From NCBI GenBank assembly GCA_020848615.1, contig JADLHW010000059.1, positions 1 through 64,000 on the forward strand: a stretch of DNA of 64,000 bases, given 5' to 3'. Under the pieces are notes generated by a model. The model saw nothing but the letters and a program-made list of their open reading frames with translations, did no database searches and was not told the origin of the DNA. Made by a program: the position numbers and the translations under genes. Positions 21,643 through 46,169 of the stretch are shown here, one piece after another (within the stretch, counting starts at the first letter, position 1; the number at the start of each line of letters is the position of its first letter). Source of the stretch: Thermoleophilia bacterium (GTDB taxonomy: Bacteria; Actinomycetota; Thermoleophilia; Miltoncostaeales; Miltoncostaeaceae).

Positions 21643-22671
21643 TCAGGCCGTCGGGCCGGTGGTGAGGGTCACGCGTGCGCTGCGCGTCGCGCCCGTCTGG
21701 TCCGTCCACGTCACGGTCACCACGTCGCCGGGGCGGTGACGGCCGATGAGGCCCGCCAGGCCCGCGCCGGACGCCACGCGCGTGCCGTCCAGGGCGGTGA
21801 CGGTGTCGCCGGCCCGCAGGCCCGCCTCCGCGGCCGGGGACCCGGCCAGGACGCCCGCCAGGACGGCGCCGTCGCCACCCGACACGCCCGTCACGAGCCG
21901 TACCCCGAGGAAGGCGGTGGGGCCGATGTGCACCGTCGCCGAGTCCTTGCCGGAGCGCACCTGCCGCACCACGGCGAGCGCCCGGTTGATGGGGATCGCG
22001 AAGCCCCGCGCCACCGTGAACGACGCCGCGGCGGTCATCCCCACCACGCGTCCCGCCGCGTTGTACAGGGGGCCGCCGGACTCCCCGGGTGCCAGGGGCG
22101 TGGTGGTCTGGATGACGCCGGTGAGGCGCTCCATCTCCCCCAGGGCGCCCTCCACGTTGATCGACCGGTTCAGGCGGCTCACCACCCCGTGGCTCACCTC
22201 GGCCCGGCCTCCTGAGCCGTTGGCGTTGCCGACGGCGATGACGGGGTCGCCCACCCGCACCTTCGCGGAGTTCCCGAGGCGCGCCGTCCGGATGCTCACC
22301 CCGCGCTTGGTGATCCGCAGGACCGCGACGTCGCCGGTCACGTCGTACCCCAGCACCTCCGCCGACCACCTGCGGTTGGTGCGCACGTCCCGCACCCGGA
22401 TGCGGGTGGAGCCCTTCACCACGTGGTTGTTCGTGAGGATGACCCCGTCGGTGCCCACCACGATCCCGGTGCCCGCGGCGGCCCCGCCGCCGGACTCCGA
22501 GACCTCGATGTCCACGATCCCGCGTTCCAGCTGGGCCTGCGTGGGGGCACCGAGGCCGGCGGCCGGGGCCGCCGTGCACACGACGCCCACCGCGATCGCG
22601 GCGGCCCAGGCCTTCGGGCCACGCATCGCGCGGGGGGAGGGGGAGACGCTCACACCTGAAGCCTGCCGCAT
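21643..22671 (-). CDS. HtrA-like secreted serine protease with one PDZ domain
   Basis: A 342-residue S1C-type protease acting outside the membrane in protein quality control. The signal region is MRGPKAWAAAIAVGVVCTAA. The catalytic triad is complete: His in LTNNHVV, Asp in TGDVAVLRI and Ser in APGESGGPLYN. A C-terminal PDZ domain (about 250-335) contains FLGVRL and AGLRAGDTVTALDG. The start is uncertain: ATG 22671, GTG near 22650 and ATG 22626 are in frame, and none has a clear ribosome binding site; the last fits the signal peptide best. tRNA-Thr follows in the opposite direction. Confidence 0.88.
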   Translation of the reverse strand: MRQASGVSVSPSPRAMRGPKAWAAAIAVGVVCTAAPAAGLGAPTQAQLERGIVDIEVSESGGGAAAGTGIVVGTDGVILTNNHVVKGSTRIRVRDVRTNRRWSAEVLGYDVTGDVAVLRITKRGVSIRTARLGNSAKVRVGDPVIAVGNANGSGGRAEVSHGVVSRLNRSINVEGALGEMERLTGVIQTTTPLAPGESGGPLYNAAGRVVGMTAAASFTVARGFAIPINRALAVVRQVRSGKDSATVHIGPTAFLGVRLVTGVSGGDGAVLAGVLAGSPAAEAGLRAGDTVTALDGTRVASGAGLAGLIGRHRPGDVVTVTWTDQTGATRSARVTLTTGPTA

Positions 22672-31874: not shown

Positions 31875-32840
31875 TCACGCCACCGGCTCCTCGGCGAGCA
31901 CCACCTCGACCTCGCGGGTCTCGGTGCCGCGCAGGACGGTGAGCGTGAGCCGGCCGTCGGCCGGCGCGGCGTCGATCGCCCGTGCGAGGTCGGCCATCTC
32001 GGTGACCGGCGCGCCGCCGGCCTGGGTGATGAGGTCCCCGTCGCCGAGGCCCGCGGCGGCCGCGGGGCTGCCGTCGTCGACGGCGCGCACCAGGACGCCC
32101 TCCGCCTCGGGCAGGCCCACGGCCCGCCGCAGCCGCTGCGCCACGTGGCCGGGGGCCAGGGCGACGCCCAGGGTGCGGGGCCGCGCGACCGTGCCGCCGG
32201 CCACCGCGGCGGCCCGCTGCGCCACGTCGGCGCCGGTTGCGACCGCGAGGGTGAGGCCCCAGCCGGGCCGCATGACGTTGATGCCCAGCAGGCCGCCGTC
32301 GGGGTCCAGCAGGGGGCCGCCGGCGGCGCCGCGGGTGAGCGGGGCGCTGTGCTCGATGCCCATCGGGCCGGTGCGGCCGCCCGGGCCCTCCAGGATGCGG
32401 GGCTCGGACGCCACGAACCCAGGGGTCACGCGCAGGCCGCGGCCGCCGGGGTTGCCCAGGGCGAGCACGAGGTCGCCGAGGCGCGGGTCGGCGGCGGCCG
32501 GCGGGATGGGGGTGACGCCGGTGGTGTCCAGGCGCAGGACGACCAGCCCCGTGCGGGGGTCGGTGCCGGCGGACTCCGCGTCCACGGTGCGGCCGTCGCC
32601 GAAGACGGCCACCGGGTTGCGGTCCCCTCGCCAGGGGGGCTGGGGGCCGCGGTGCCGGAACGGGGCGCCGCGGTGGGGGTGGTGGTGGTGGGGGCCGCCG
32701 CGCGGGTGGTGGTGCGGGGCCGCGAGGGCGAGGCCGTCGGCCACGACCACGCCGGAGCCGCGGCCCCAGCGCCCCAGGCCGAAGACGGCCGGGCCGCCCG
32801 ACCGCGCGGCGCTCCTGATGTGTTCGCTCGTGTCGGTCAC
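31875..32840 (-). CDS. Trypsin-like/PDZ pseudoprotease with a His-rich loop
   Basis: A 321-residue protein with the HtrA layout, a trypsin-like domain (about 20-225) and a PDZ domain (about 230-315: LGVALAPGHVAQRL, AAGLGDGDLITQAGG). All three catalytic positions appear lost. The region that should hold LTNNHVV is replaced by a loop with about 10 histidines (about 43-63, PHHHPRGG and PHHHHPHRG). The Asp position reads RTGLVVLRL instead of TDLAVL, and the Ser loop reads RGAAGGPL instead of GNSGGP. No signal peptide is seen, so it may be cytoplasmic. A binding role, perhaps metal-linked, is inferred. GTG 32840 follows GGAGAACGCGTC. It is divergent from an HxlR regulator. Confidence 0.85.
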   Translation of the reverse strand: MTDTSEHIRSAARSGGPAVFGLGRWGRGSGVVVADGLALAAPHHHPRGGPHHHHPHRGAPFRHRGPQPPWRGDRNPVAVFGDGRTVDAESAGTDPRTGLVVLRLDTTGVTPIPPAAADPRLGDLVLALGNPGGRGLRVTPGFVASEPRILEGPGGRTGPMGIEHSAPLTRGAAGGPLLDPDGGLLGINVMRPGWGLTLAVATGADVAQRAAAVAGGTVARPRTLGVALAPGHVAQRLRRAVGLPEAEGVLVRAVDDGSPAAAAGLGDGDLITQAGGAPVTEMADLARAIDAAPADGRLTLTVLRGTETREVEVVLAEEPVA

Positions 32841-32912: not shown

Positions 32913-33344
32913 ATGAGCACCGACGCCGCCGACGGCCCCGACCGGAACCTCTCCGCCGCCCTGGAGGAGGTGGGCGACCGGTGGACGCTGCTCATCGTCA
33001 ACGCCCTGCTGGACGGACCCGGGCGGTTCGGGGACCTGCAGGCCGCGCTGGGCGGCATCGCCCCGAACGTGCTCACCCAGCGCCTGCGCCACCTGCAGGC
33101 GGCGGGCCTGGTGTCCGCAGAGCCGTACAGCCGGCGGCCGCCGCGGATGGTGTACGAGCTCACCGGCCCCGGGCGCGAGCTGGCCGGGCCGCTGCGGCTG
33201 CTGGCCGACTGGGGCGCGCGGCGGGCGGGCGGCGCCCCGGGGGTGCGGCACGACGTGTGCGGCACGGCCCTGGAGGCGCGCTGGTGGTGTCCCACCTGCG
33301 AGGTGGTCGTGGACGATCCGGGCGAGGAACTGCACCGCCTCTGA
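32913..33344 (+). CDS. HxlR-family winged-helix regulator with Cys-rich C-terminus
   Basis: A 143-residue protein. The HxlR domain (about 12-100) is clear: [51 protein letters not shown]. An extension of about 35 residues has three cysteines ([19 protein letters not shown]), resembling a zinc ribbon or redox site. It probably binds the palindrome between it and the divergent pseudoprotease gene and controls both. Confidence 0.88.
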
Positions 33345-33474
33345 CCGGCGGGCGGCCCCGACGCTCAAGTCCCGCGCGCCGCCGCCGAGGTGGCGGTCGA
33401 ACGGAGTGCCCACCCTCCCCCCGGGCGGCAGGGCTCCGGAACCCCCCGCATCGTCCGCCCCGAGGGAGGTTTCC

Positions 33475-34818
33475 GTGTCGCCGTCCACCATCTCGCGCCC
33501 GCCCGCGGCCCACGCCGCGCCCGCGTCCGCACACGGCGATCCGGGGGCCGCGGCACCGGAGCCGCCGGTCGACCGCATCGGGATGCTGCGCATCGACGCC
33601 GACACGTTCGCCGTGATGCGGGAGGCCGGTCCCGTGCTGCGGGAATGCGTCGACGAGATGGTCGAGCGGTTCTACGCCCGCGTGGGCGACACGCCGTCGC
33701 TGGTGGAGATCGTGTCGCGGAACTCCAGCATCGAGCGCCTGTCGGGGACCCTGCGGCAGTACATCCTGGACTTCCTCACCACCGACCTGGGCCCGGAGCA
33801 CGTGGCCGCCAGGAACCGCATCTCGGCGATCCACGACCGCATCAACCTGCCCGTCGAGGTCTACATCTTCCAGTTCCAGGCGATCCGGGAGGTCTGGACG
33901 CAGACGGTCCTCCTCGCCACCCGCGGGTTCCGGCCGCGGCTCAGGCGCCCCGCCCACGAGTACATCGCGGCGTTCGACAAGATGCTCACCTTCGACGCGG
34001 GCCTGGTGACCCAGGTGTTCATGCACGCCCGGCAGGAGCGGGTGGAGCGGGCGCTGCAGGACGTGCGCGAGCAGCAGGACGCCACCGGGCGCGTCGCCCG
34101 CGAGCTGAACGACCTGGCCGGGCAGCTCGCGGCCGCCGCACAGCAGTCCTCCGCCGCGATCCAGGAGATGAGCGCCACCGCCGAGCAGGTCGCCGGTGAG
34201 GTGGGGCAGGCGTCCCAGCAGACCAGCGCGGCGAACGGCCGCGTGCAGGAGGGCCTGTCGGCCGTCGAGGACGCCGACGCGGCGGTGTCGCACGTGCGGG
34301 ACGCGTCCCGGGAGGTGGCGGGCGCGGCCGGTGACCTGGACGAGGCCTCCGGCCGGATCGCCCGGATCGCGGGGATCCTCGAGCAGACCGCCAAGCAGAT
34401 CAACCTGCTCGCCCTGAACGCGGCGATCGAGGCGGCCCGCGCGGGCGAGGCCGGCCGCGGCTTCGCGGTGGTCGCCGACCAGGTGCGGGTCCTCGCCGAG
34501 GCGACCTCACAGCACCTGGTGGAGGCCGAGGCCGCGGTGCGGGCGATGCAGGGGTCGGTGGCCCAGGTGCGGTCGGCGGGCGAGAGCGCCGCCGCGCAGG
34601 TCGAGGCCCTGGAGGACGCCACGGGTACGGTGCGCGGGCGGTTCACGGTGATCGCGGAGGCGTTCGGCACCAGCGACCGGGCCCTCACGACCATCGCCGC
34701 CGCCTCCCAGCAGGTGGCGGCGGGCGCCGGGGAGACCGGCCGCGCGTCATCGGAGGTCGCGAAGCTCGCGGAGGATGTGAAGGCCGTCGCCGACGGCCTG
34801 TCCTTCCAGGGTCAGTAG
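33475..34818 (+). CDS. Globin-coupled soluble chemoreceptor (HemAT-like)
   Basis: A 447-residue protein with no membrane segment. The N-terminal part (about 40-200) is a protoglobin sensor domain; [29 protein letters not shown] carries the likely haem-ligating His near 120. The C-terminal part (about 205-447) is a methyl-accepting chemotaxis signalling domain with the conserved hairpin [20 protein letters not shown] and [16 protein letters not shown]. It probably senses oxygen or another gas ligand. GTG at 33475 is chosen for the strong GAGGGAGG upstream. No CheA, CheW or methyltransferase gene is in the window. Confidence 0.9.
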
Positions 34819-38112: not shown

Positions 38113-40251
38113 ATGCCGCCGGACAGCACGCAGGCACCGTTCCGCGTCGCGATCGCCAACGTCCTCGCCGCGCTGCCGGAGGCCGACGGCGACGGCGTCT
38201 GGCGACTCGACGACCTGGGCATCGAGGTGGTGATCGACCCGGTCCTCCGGGAGACCGCCGGGAACCCGCTGGCGCCCCGCATCGCCGACGCGTGCCGGCG
38301 CGCGGGGTGGGACGGGTGCGACCTCTACATCCACCAGATCCCCGAGTACCGGGCGCTCCCGGTGGACGTGTTCTCCACGCCGCGGCGGCGACTGCTGCTC
38401 ACCGGCGACTGGAACCTCGGCGCGGTGACGGCCCGCCTCCTGCGCCCCTGGTTCCCCGCGATCGCCTGCGATCATGCGGGCGTCGAGGCCATGCGCGGCC
38501 TCGGCTACCAAACGGTCATCCCGCAACTCGTGTGGGGCTGGGACCCGGTCACCTGGCCCCTCGCCGCGCCGCGGTCCCGCCGTGACATCGACGTGCTGTT
38601 CGTCGGGAACCGGAACCCCGCGATCCACGCGGAGCGGGAGCGACGCCTCGCCATGCTGGCACGCTCCGCGCCGGGACGCGACGTCCGGATCGTGACCGAC
38701 GTCCACGGGTCCCGGAACCACGAGCTCCACACCAGGGCGAAGCTCGTCTTCAACTACTCGGTCCGCGGCGAGGCGAACATGCGCAGCTTCGAGGCCGCGG
38801 CGGCGGGGGCGTGCGTCCTGAACGAGCGGGGGAACCCGACGCTGCCGCGGGTCTTCGAGCCGGGTCGCGACTACGCGGAGTACGACGAGGGGGATCTCGC
38901 CGAGGTCATCTCGGAACTGCTCGGCGACGACCGGCGCCGCGTCACGATCGCGGAGCACGGGCAACGTGTGGTGGCGCGGCACACGTACGCCGATCACTGG
39001 CGGGCGCTGCTCGGGCACCTGGCACGGGAGGTCCCCGGATGGGATGCGCCGCCGGAGCCCGACGAGCGCACCGCGCTCGAGGTGCTGGCGGAGCAGTGGC
39101 GGCTGGCGTCCGCGGCGGTGTACCGGCGGCACATCCGGAGCCTCACGACCCGCCACCCGTCGGCCAGGTATCGGGGCCGCGCCGACCTGCTCGTCCTGCG
39201 CGAGACCGTGGAGGCGGGCGATGGCGCCGCCGCGGAGGCGCCGCGCCTCGTGGACGCGGGCGCGACGCTCGGGGCGCTGGACGATCCCGCCGTGGCGCTC
39301 TGCCTGGCCTGGACCGAGTTCGGGACCGCGGAGTCCGTCGCACGGCCGTCGACGCTCGCCGGTCTCCACTCGGGCCGCTTCGACGAGTTCCGGACCGCGC
39401 TGGAGCGGATCGCGCTCACCCCGGGACCGGAGCACGGGCTGCGCCACGAGCTGTCCACCTGGGCGGAGCGTCAGCTGCGGCTCGTGCGGGCGACGGGCGC
39501 AATCGGGAGGGACGACCCCCGCCGCATCGCGGCATCTCTCGCGGACGACGGCGGCCACCACTCGATGGTGACCCTGCGTGCCCGGGCGCACCTGGCCGCC
39601 GGGGAGATCGATGCGGGAATCGCCGATCTCGTCTGGTGCCTGCGCGACCTGCCGACGGACGTGGAGAGCGCGGTGCTGCTCGGGGAGGCCCTGCGGGCAG
39701 CCGGTCGCCACGAGGAGGCGGTCGCGGTGATCGACGATCTGCGAATGGTCGTCACGCCGGACAACCGGTTCGGTGCCGAGACGCGCGACGCGCTTCACCG
39801 CGCCCGGGCCGCGCTCGCCGCACCGCCCGGCGACCATGCGATCTGCTGGGTGGAGCCGTACGACGCGCATGCCATCGCCGCCATCGTGCGTGCACGGGTC
39901 GCCGGCGGGATCCCGGAGCCGGAGATCCAGTGCGTGGCGGCATCACCCCAGGCCGCGGGCGACCTCCTGGGGGCGTTCTCGTCGGCGCTTGAGGATCTCG
40001 GCGTGGGCGGTGACGACATCGGGGACATCTCGATCGTCGCTCCCGCCGCCGCCCGCTGGGACCGCTGGCGGGACGTCGCGTCCTGCGGGCGCGTGCTGGC
40101 GAGGCGGGGCTCGTTCGAGCATCTGCTGGCCGAGGCGCTCGCTCGGCCCGTGCTCATCCTCGAGGAGCCGCCGGCCGGTGACCTGCTCGGCCCGCCGGGG
40201 CGGGGGCGCGCCACGAGCGGCGCCGCGACGACCGTGGTGGCGGCACGCTGA
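38113..40251 (+). CDS. CgeB-like glycosyltransferase with a helical repeat C-terminus
   Basis: A 712-residue protein. The N-terminal half (about 1-320) has a CgeB/GT-B-like layout: RRLLLTGDWNLGAVTARLL, IDVLFVGNRNPAIHAERERRLAML, and the sugar-nucleotide region RAKLVFNYSVRGEANMRSFEAAAAGACVLNE with the conserved Glu, followed by YDEGDLAEVISELL. The second half is alpha-helical and TPR-like (AEGEIDAGIADLVWCLRDLP-type repeats, EALRAAGRHEEAVAVIDDL). Such proteins glycosylate surface or spore structures; the acceptor is unknown. GAGGAAG lies before the ATG. Codon choice is slightly less biased than that of its neighbours. Confidence 0.8.
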   Translation: MPPDSTQAPFRVAIANVLAALPEADGDGVWRLDDLGIEVVIDPVLRETAGNPLAPRIADACRRAGWDGCDLYIHQIPEYRALPVDVFSTPRRRLLLTGDWNLGAVTARLLRPWFPAIACDHAGVEAMRGLGYQTVIPQLVWGWDPVTWPLAAPRSRRDIDVLFVGNRNPAIHAERERRLAMLARSAPGRDVRIVTDVHGSRNHELHTRAKLVFNYSVRGEANMRSFEAAAAGACVLNERGNPTLPRVFEPGRDYAEYDEGDLAEVISELLGDDRRRVTIAEHGQRVVARHTYADHWRALLGHLAREVPGWDAPPEPDERTALEVLAEQWRLASAAVYRRHIRSLTTRHPSARYRGRADLLVLRETVEAGDGAAAEAPRLVDAGATLGALDDPAVALCLAWTEFGTAESVARPSTLAGLHSGRFDEFRTALERIALTPGPEHGLRHELSTWAERQLRLVRATGAIGRDDPRRIAASLADDGGHHSMVTLRARAHLAAGEIDAGIADLVWCLRDLPTDVESAVLLGEALRAAGRHEEAVAVIDDLRMVVTPDNRFGAETRDALHRARAALAAPPGDHAICWVEPYDAHAIAAIVRARVAGGIPEPEIQCVAASPQAAGDLLGAFSSALEDLGVGGDDIGDISIVAPAAARWDRWRDVASCGRVLARRGSFEHLLAEALARPVLILEEPPAGDLLGPPGRGRATSGAATTVVAAR

Positions 40252-42993: not shown

Positions 42994-44056
42994 CTACCGC
43001 CGCGGCAGCCGGTACGTGGTGGTGTTCCGCGACCCCACGGGCCGGCAGCGCAAACGGGCCGCCGCGACCATGGCCGAGGCCCGCTCGCTGAAGGCCCAGC
43101 TCAACGCCGACGTCATCCGCGGCGAGTACCGCGAGCAGTCGCGGATGCGGTTCGAGGAGTACGCCAAGGAGTAGTGCCGCACCTACACCGGCCGCACCAA
43201 TCGCGGCATCCGTCCGACCACCCTGGCCGAGTACCAGCGCTGCCTGGACCGGTACGTGATGCCAACCCTCGGCAAGCAGCGCCTCACGGCGATCGAGCCG
43301 CGGGACATCAAGCGCCTGGCCGCCGGGCTCTCCAACGAGCGCCTGTCGGCGTCCACCGTGCGCAACGCGATCGCGCCGGTGCGGGCGCTGTTCGCCACCG
43401 AGGTGGAGGAGGGGCTGGTGCGCTCCAACCCGTGCTCCGGCCTGCGCCTCGCGAGGGGCCCGGCGGACCCGGAGAACCGGGCGCGGGCGCTCACGCCGGA
43501 CGAACTGCGGCGGTTGCTGTCGGAAGCTTCCGAGGAGTGGCGTCTGCTGCTGAGCTTCCTCGCCCAGACCGGGCTGCGGATCGGTGAGCTGGTCGTGCTC
43601 CGTTGGGGTGACCTGGATCTGGAGACCCGGCGCCTACGCGTGCGGCGGCGCCTCTACCGCGGCACGATCGACACCCCGAAGAGCCGGTTCGGCGCGCGCG
43701 ACGTACCGCTGTCCACCGACTTGGCGGCGCGCCTGGCGAAGCACCGCGAGGCCGCGTACTTCCAGACCGACGCCGATCTGGTGTTCCCGACGCGGACGGG
43801 CACTCCGATGGACGCCACAAACGTCCTCAACCGGGCGGTGAAGCCAGCGGCCCGTCGTGCGGGCGTTCCGTGGGCTGGGCTCCACACCCTCCGTCACACG
43901 TGTGCGTCGATGCTCTTCCGCTCTGGGTGGAACGCGAAGCAGGTCCAGATGGTCCTGGGTCACCACTCGCCGGCGTTCACCCTCGCGACCTACGTCCACC
44001 TGATCCCGGATGACCTTCCGGAGCCCGTCTTCCCGGCGGAAGTACTTCCGGAGTGA
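42956..44056 (+). pseudogene. Tyrosine recombinase (integrase) interrupted by one amber codon
   Basis: One reading frame from GTG 42956 to TGA 44056 with a single TAG at 43172-43174. The N-terminal part (VPGIYRRGSRYVVVFRDPTGRQRKRAA) is the arm-binding domain. The core-binding domain follows the stop (TLAEYQRCLDRYVMPTLGKQRL). The catalytic domain has Arg in TGLRIGELVVL, His-x-x-Arg in LHTLRHTCASM, LGHHSPAF and the nucleophile Tyr in ATYVHL. The stop falls where related integrases usually have Trp in an EW..TY.GR motif, so a TGG-to-TAG change is likely. An ATG at 43259 could still yield a protein lacking the arm domain. Confidence 0.85.
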
Positions 44057-44426: not shown

Positions 44427-46169
44427 GTGACAATGGACCGGATGCTGTTCGGTGGGGTTGAGCTAGGCGGCTACCGGAGCTTCGGTTCGGGCGGAGGTCG
44501 GTTCGGCCCGCTGGGGCCTGTGTCCGTTGTCGTCGGTCCCAATAATTCTGGGAAGTCCAACGTCCTGCGCTTCTTGATGAACCACGTCAAGGGCGTGGCG
44601 GAAGCGGCGGCGGCATCGGCGCAGCGCTACTCCATGGAAGGCGAGAAGCACTTGGGAACGGCGGACACGCCGATTCGTGTCGGCTTCGCGATCGTCCCAG
44701 GCACCCCTTCGTACGAACGAGCCCTCACACGGGCCGGAGACCAGTGGGGGGAGACGCTACTCACCCTTCTCGGGCATTCATCCATCTCCGTAGACGGGTG
44801 CGCGTGGGCCCGATTTGAAGCGCAGGGAGATCACTGGATCGTTCCTGAGGCGGTGTTGCGAGAACTCCTCCCAGCGATGGAAGCCCATACTTGGGGGCAC
44901 CTTGCGGGGCACTTGGTCAATGCATCGCAGATGTCTCCCGCGCAGGCGATCGAGACCATCTTGCGTCTGTTCGTTCCTCGAGTAGACGAGATCCCGCAGA
45001 TCGAGATGATCCCCGCGATTAGGAAGGTTGGTGCTCCCGGAACATCGGGCACAGGCCTCGATGGCGCTGGAATCATCCAACGGTTAGCCGAGCTCCAAGA
45101 ACCACTCCACGGGGTTGATCCGAACTTCCTCCGGAGGGACGCAGTGATTCGCTTCCTCCGTGATGTCCTCGACAAGCCTGACGCAACACTTCGCGTCCCG
45201 CATGATCGCGGGGCGGTTCTCGTGCGTGTCGATGATCACGAGCTTCCGCTTGAGGATCTTGGAACCGGCATCCACGAGGTCGTGATTCTGGCGGTTGCAG
45301 CGACGGCAATGGAGTCGACGCTCATGCTCATCGAGGAGCCCGAGCTTCACCTCCACCCAGTCCTCCAGCGGAAACTGCTTCGTTACCTCTCTGAGGAAAC
45401 GACCAACCAGTACGTCGTGACCAGTCATTCGGCGCATATGATCGACGCACCGCAGACTACGGTCATACGTGTATGGCATGACGGGGTGGAATGCCACTCA
45501 GAGGCCGTCAGCGGTGAACGTTCGGTCGTGGCGGCTTGCCGAGATCTTGGGTATCGACCGTCCGACCTGGTCCAAGCCAACGCGGTTGTATGGGTTGAGG
45601 GTCCGTCAGATCGGATCTATGTCAATCACTGGCTCCGCTCCGTCGCACCCCACCTGGTGGAAGGCGTTCACTACTCGGTGATGTTCTATGGGGGCAGGCT
45701 GCTTGCTCACCTTTCCGGCGAGCCGGCAGATCGCGTCGCTGATGAGCTGGTTGCGGTCAGACGACTGAACCAATTCAGTGCTGTCGTGGTCGACAGTGAT
45801 CGTAGGGTAAAGGGCGCGCGGCTCAACGAGACGAAGCGGCGCATCATTCGAGAGTTCGAGCAGCACGAAGGTCTAGTCTGGGTCACAAAGGGCCGCGAGA
45901 TCGAGAACTATGTGCCAGTGGATGTGCTGGGGCGAGCAATTGCGGCGGTGCATCCAGGGGCCGAGTTGAGATGGAACGGCGACCCGCTCGACTTGGCCTT
46001 GGCTGTCCGTACAAGACGGGGACGCGATGTACGTGTGGACAAGGTGGCGGTTGCGAGGGAGGTGGCCCGTATCCCCGCTGACACCAAGCCTTTGGATTTG
46101 GCGAAGGCGATCGCCCAGCTGGTCGCCTTCATAGACGCAGCGAACCGCGGAGGGGCGCTCGGGGCCTAG
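44427..46169 (+). CDS. OLD-family ATP-dependent nuclease (AAA ATPase plus TOPRIM)
   Basis: A 580-residue protein. The N-terminal ABC-type ATPase has Walker A GPNNSGKSNVLRF at 37-49, the signature LEDLGTGIHEVVILA near 277 and Walker B LMLIEEPELHLHP near 299, then VVTSHSAHMIDA. The C-terminal TOPRIM domain has Glu in VWVEGPSDRIYV near 388 and DxD in VVVDSDRR near 452. Proteins of this family cut DNA or RNA and act in phage defence, alone or with a helicase (Gabija) or reverse transcriptase partner; no such partner is adjacent. Base composition is clearly lower in GC than the surrounding core genes, and codons ending in A/T are common, so it was acquired. Start GTG 44427 or ATG 44433. Confidence 0.9.
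   Translation: MTMDRMLFGGVELGGYRSFGSGGGRFGPLGPVSVVVGPNNSGKSNVLRFLMNHVKGVAEAAAASAQRYSMEGEKHLGTADTPIRVGFAIVPGTPSYERALTRAGDQWGETLLTLLGHSSISVDGCAWARFEAQGDHWIVPEAVLRELLPAMEAHTWGHLAGHLVNASQMSPAQAIETILRLFVPRVDEIPQIEMIPAIRKVGAPGTSGTGLDGAGIIQRLAELQEPLHGVDPNFLRRDAVIRFLRDVLDKPDATLRVPHDRGAVLVRVDDHELPLEDLGTGIHEVVILAVAATAMESTLMLIEEPELHLHPVLQRKLLRYLSEETTNQYVVTSHSAHMIDAPQTTVIRVWHDGVECHSEAVSGERSVVAACRDLGYRPSDLVQANAVVWVEGPSDRIYVNHWLRSVAPHLVEGVHYSVMFYGGRLLAHLSGEPADRVADELVAVRRLNQFSAVVVDSDRRVKGARLNETKRRIIREFEQHEGLVWVTKGREIENYVPVDVLGRAIAAVHPGAELRWNGDPLDLALAVRTRRGRDVRVDKVAVAREVARIPADTKPLDLAKAIAQLVAFIDAANRGGALGA

Follow-up and report, generated by a model that had tools for sequence, protein, structure and literature searches.

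A probable orphaned, catalytically inactive member of an HxlR-linked cytosolic HtrA family in a Thermoleophilia bacterium

Bacterial HtrA proteins typically carry an export signal or a membrane anchor. A 2008 survey counted 42 inactive serine-protease homologues across prokaryotes in general; within the open-licence literature, bacterial pseudo-HtrA proteins lead to MamO and are known in detail essentially from it. In the magnetosome pair MamE/MamO, redundancy let one HtrA of the pair lose catalysis, and three taxa have evolved magnetosome HtrA pseudoproteases independently of one another, in each case following redundancy (PMC4794232). On the regulatory side, HypR, YodB, CatR and HxlR, which are MarR/DUF24 thiol or aldehyde sensors, sense their signals through an N-terminal cysteine (PMC6943732, PMC7835342). 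A search of the open-licence literature returned no paper with a relevant link between HxlR and HtrA.

The gene described here lies in a 64,000-nucleotide stretch of DNA, called the window below, and its product is, by its profile scores, an HtrA homologue that belongs to no named subfamily. In particular, the NCBIfam HtrA models match it far under their curated cut-offs (115.7 versus 416.2 bits for the Do family), which places it outside the named subfamilies. Pfam finds two domains and no others, Trypsin_2 at residues 28-187 (E 3e-17) and PDZ at about residues 223-314 (E 4e-13), and the top PDB fold matches are Deg1, DegQ, DegS and HhoA (Foldseek, E about 1e-21). A structure predicted as a single chain by AlphaFold2, with a 57-sequence family alignment as input, has a mean pLDDT of 88.8. 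An earlier note on this DNA had proposed a trypsin fold with a PDZ domain and no signal peptide; both proposals are borne out, as neither a signal peptide nor a transmembrane segment was found in the N-terminus (maximum 19-residue hydropathy of 0.69 in the first 60 residues). The PDZ contains a carboxylate-loop-like RTLGVAL, and its L224 and G225 are invariant in the 57 aligned sequences. E163 and H164 (EHTAPL) and parts of an RRAVGL segment ahead of the PDZ (R238-L243) do not vary among the members, whether active or dead, hinting at a common non-catalytic site. The coordinates of the locus are collected in Table 1.

Table 1. Features of the pseudo-HtrA locus, in window coordinates.
Feature	Position	Strand	Basis
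Pseudo-HtrA gene, 321 aa, GTG start at 32840	31875..32840	-	ORF, Pfam, fold, dN/dS
Ala173 codon, catalytic Ser position	32322..32324	-	alignment
Gly98 codon, catalytic Asp position	32547..32549	-	alignment
His/Pro/Gly-rich insertion, residues 43-75, beginning with His43	32616..32714	-	alignment, AlphaFold2
Putative HxlR operator palindrome TTGTCACTAGCAATTAGCAAGTGACAA	32854..32880	.	conservation, single genomic copy
HxlR-family regulator, 143 aa, divergent from pseudo-HtrA	32913..33344	+	Pfam HxlR PF01638, E 2e-23

Compared with DegP, DegS, DegQ and HhoA (TIGR02037 and relatives), the window protein shares the order of a Trypsin_2 domain and a C-terminal PDZ, but it differs in its lack of a signal peptide, its broken triad, its link to HxlR and its sub-cut-off NCBIfam scores. 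The likeness to MamO is that an HtrA fold that has lost catalysis occurs next to an active HtrA, and its scaffold bears histidines. However, MamO is located in the membrane and periplasm and, in Alphaproteobacteria, ends in a C-terminal TauE domain, whereas the window protein is soluble and has no such domain; MamO keeps His and Asp and has a predicted Thr nucleophile, whereas the window protein reads H-G-A at these positions; and the metal site of MamO is a structured di-His site (H148/H263), whereas the histidine-rich loop of the window protein is disordered in the model. Apparent control by HxlR and a lost partner further set the window protein apart.

The active-site positions were assigned by alignment to 64 relatives and to the active partners described below. 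Asp is replaced by Gly98 (RTGLVV) and Ser by Ala173 (GAAGGP), while His43, the first residue of an HHH run, stands ungapped opposite the catalytic His (GLALAAPHHH versus GRVLTNAHNL); the window protein thereby has neither a full His-Asp-Ser triad nor the GNSGG/GSSGG motif. The earlier note had claimed that all three residues were lost, which is correct for Asp and Ser but not for His. The protein of the sister species (G001; 73-74% identity) reads H-G-S, so that the Asp-to-Gly change is common to both species and the Ser-to-Ala change is not fixed even inside the genus. Close homologues that keep the triad, which the note had regarded as evidence against its reading, exist in part: relatives at 45-51% identity have it intact, whereas the homologue at 73-74% has His and Ser and no Asp. 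With both Asp and Ser replaced, the window protein should be inactive as a serine protease and, to judge by these residues, is an HtrA homologue by descent and not an HtrA protease.

A profile built from six close relatives, the window protein among them, was searched in two genome sets, one from the class (399 genomes) and one from the phylum (397 genomes). The scores fall into two groups with a clear gap, family members at 176 bits or more and other HtrA proteins at 164 bits or less; the window protein scores 449 bits, with its own sequence in the seed, and is 45-51% identical to most members outside the seed. Members occur in 5 of the 42 genomes of the window's own taxonomic family. GC and gene content suggest that the group belongs to the Actinomycetota and is probably Thermoleophilia-like. 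Across 65 loci sampled phylum-wide, the window included, a divergent HxlR gene accompanies the HtrA gene in 62, and one of the three exceptions (L069) starts near a contig edge. These proteins apparently form an undescribed, phylum-wide family of HxlR-linked HtrA homologues. A wider scan of contigs for relatives returned distant alphaproteobacterial HtrAs only, and the phage and plasmid collections returned DegS only.

The regulator has the HxlR winged-helix domain of the thiol and aldehyde sensors, and its PDB relatives are YtcD, YybR, YodB and HxlR, but it has no N-terminal sensing cysteine. Its only cysteines, at positions 116, 126 and 129, are confined to the C-terminal tail, where they form the arrangement H113-x2-C116-x9-C126-x2-C129; this tail is kept in the HxlR proteins of 58 of 60 relatives. 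The HxlR proteins at L041 (G017) and L042 (G008), which belong to a single genus, have lost the otherwise near-invariant H-C-C-C tail, although the operator is retained at both loci. In G001, the HxlR gene (L038:10340-10675) has an internal deletion and a frameshift between LDEVG and LLEGPARFGDL, which may be a draft-assembly error.

Between the divergent genes, the palindrome has perfect 8-nt arms that were matched in 3 of 300 shuffles, and 62 of the 65 intergenic regions contain the palindrome, whose consensus is roughly TAGTnACTTGCAAnTTGCAAGTnACTA (p <= 0.005 against shuffles). The window and G001 copies differ at 2 of 27 bases. Based on its conservation and position, the palindrome is taken to be the probable HxlR binding site. 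It occurs once in the window genome at up to 2 mismatches, and an operator serving a larger regulon was rejected, with no other targets seen. A -10-like TACCCT lies immediately upstream of the palindrome on the HtrA strand, and a TAnnnT is found directly before it on that strand in 25 of 62 regions, compared to about 15% in shuffles. A sigma-70 promoter match within the palindrome was set aside because its implied start falls at or below the Shine-Dalgarno-like GGAG; the upstream TACCCT fits better. Overall, the divergent HxlR gene with three cysteines and the strong palindrome, both pointed out in the earlier note, are confirmed, and the arrangement in 62 of 65 loci with a single genomic operator supports its proposal that the two genes form a unit.

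Across the family, the triad is His-Asp-Ser in 48 of 64 scorable members and degenerate in the other 16, with the patterns H-G-A, H-G-S, H-D-A, P-G-A, R-G-A, R-G-S, R-G-G, R-D-G and H-G-G. All 16 degenerate members belong to the window's class, compared to 0 of 30 members elsewhere in the phylum. A maximum-likelihood tree made without the triad columns requires at least 5 changes at His, 4 at Asp and 7 at Ser; its deeper branches, on which the order of the losses depends, are weakly supported, so that these figures are lower bounds. The window and G001 proteins form a fully supported pair (100/100) on a long branch (1.2). The tree indicates that catalytic loss is derived and recurrent, on several branches of the class.

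In most members of the class, an HtrA gene with an intact triad follows next on the same strand, frequently overlapping, and all 33 scorable partners are H-D-S. Triad loss beside an intact HtrA repeats the MamE/MamO case in a different setting (PMC4794232). The two genomes of the window's genus, G000 and G001, both drafts, have no partner beside the gene, and the partner ortholog was not found elsewhere in either of them (best matches of 104 and 126 bits, compared to 346-584 bits for true partners); a partner hidden elsewhere in the genome was rejected on these scores.

Taken together, the gene probably encodes a catalytically dead orphan from a family of cytosolic HtrA proteins under HxlR control, working by binding through its PDZ and trypsin fold. 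In several lineages of the class, the first gene of the HtrA pair has lost catalytic residues. In the window's genus, it has lost Asp, and Ser as well in the window species, it has gained a histidine-rich loop, predicted to be disordered, right behind the former catalytic His, and its active partner is missing, which leaves the pseudo-HtrA on its own. HxlR would repress both the pseudo-HtrA gene and its own gene by covering their shared promoter region and would release it upon a signal, conceivably sensed through the conserved His/Cys3 tail. Release would raise the level of a soluble, non-cutting HtrA-fold protein, probably an oligomer, whose intact PDZ groove (RTLGVAL) and trypsin-fold platform may hold on to peptides or to damaged proteins. 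Fold and precedent suggest that it would thereby serve as a holdase, an adaptor or a scaffold. The loop over the former active site might, more speculatively, add transition-metal binding.

The earlier note suggested a metal- or redox-responsive unit. In such a unit, the histidines of the loop would bind metal, to store, buffer or sense it, and HxlR would respond to a metal or an oxidant. The loop itself is real: 9 of the 33 residues at positions 43-75 are His, compared to about 2.6% His in the coding-like ORFs of the window, and residues 44-64 have a pLDDT below 50, predicting disorder. Transition metals are possible ligands, MamO offers a precedent as a pseudo-HtrA that binds metal via surface histidines (PMC4794232), and the HxlR tail resembles a zinc site. 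G001 has a similar but reshuffled histidine stretch whose spacing is partly conserved (PHHHxPHxxxPFxHRGP). However, the loop is low-complexity, fast-changing sequence (dN of 0.41 between the two species) that could have originated by slippage in CAC/CCC-rich DNA. Moreover, it is absent from all family members seen outside the genus, and these relatives, full-triad proteases included, have the same HxlR and operator; HxlR thus did not evolve for the loop, which cannot explain the unit and is a late addition to an arrangement already conserved. A metal- or redox-responsive unit is accordingly regarded as doubtful.

It is less likely still that the dead HtrA is a regulatory subunit, tuning an active HtrA within mixed oligomers. 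The intact-triad HtrA that follows the gene in 13 of the 16 degenerate loci, often overlapping it, would suit such a role, as would the non-catalytic activation of MamE by MamO (PMC4794232), but phylogeny confounds the losses with the presence of the partner, and the partner is missing from the window's genus. Further, the other HtrA proteins of the genome carry signal sequences, membrane segments or additional domains, so that no cytosolic partner is evident among them.

The comparison with G001 argues for a functional protein and against a decaying pseudogene. The pseudo-HtrA gene has a dN/dS of 0.30 (PDZ 0.26, rest of the trypsin domain 0.35, histidine loop 0.32 from few sites), as low as that of the neighbouring methyltransferase gene (0.28), with HxlR at 0.12, indicating that selection still holds its sequence. 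Together with the missing nucleophile and Asp and the retained fold and PDZ, this supports the non-proteolytic role proposed in the earlier note. Decay could account for the long branch, the triad and partner losses and the damaged HxlR copy in the G001 draft, but the open frame and synteny are retained in two species and their operators are near-identical, making it very improbable. Least credible is a protease acting by a residual or rearranged mechanism, since the retained His43 and the Ser of G001 are offset by the absence of both a nucleophile at the Ser position and an Asp from the window protein.

The reading of the gene as an orphaned, non-catalytic binder can be extended, with considerable doubt, to an undescribed stress module that is dedicated to HxlR and HtrA and common across the phylum, in which a soluble HtrA was repeatedly made into a non-catalytic binder; within the window's genus it might have become a stand-alone, metal-loaded chaperone or scaffold with its histidine loop, under a single-operator regulator whose C-terminal zinc/cysteine tail would be the sensor. 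Within the family, one and the same regulated gene has repeatedly lost catalytic residues, while the partner next to it has always stayed intact. The family therefore offers a natural series from protease to binding protein, with active members, members with one, two or three residues lost, and members with the partner lost, and it points to an undescribed HxlR regulon that would consist of one operator and cytosolic HtrAs.

A second HtrA-like protein is encoded at 21643-22671 on the minus strand of the window, with a signal-peptide-like N-terminus and an apparently intact triad (NNHVV, TGDVAV, GESGGP); as an apparently exported protein, it contrasts with the soluble, dead HtrA. On the other side, the HxlR gene is adjoined by a gene for a protein with Protoglobin and MCP signalling domains, a globin-coupled sensor (33406-34818, plus strand), which is also present in G001 (L038:10694-12229). 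Further along the window, between positions 40001 and 52000, the GC content drops from about 76% to 65.5%. As judged by eye, this region contains a tyrosine-integrase-like ORF (43256-44056) and an ORF for an OLD-like ATPase/TOPRIM protein (44427-46169), suggesting a mobile island.
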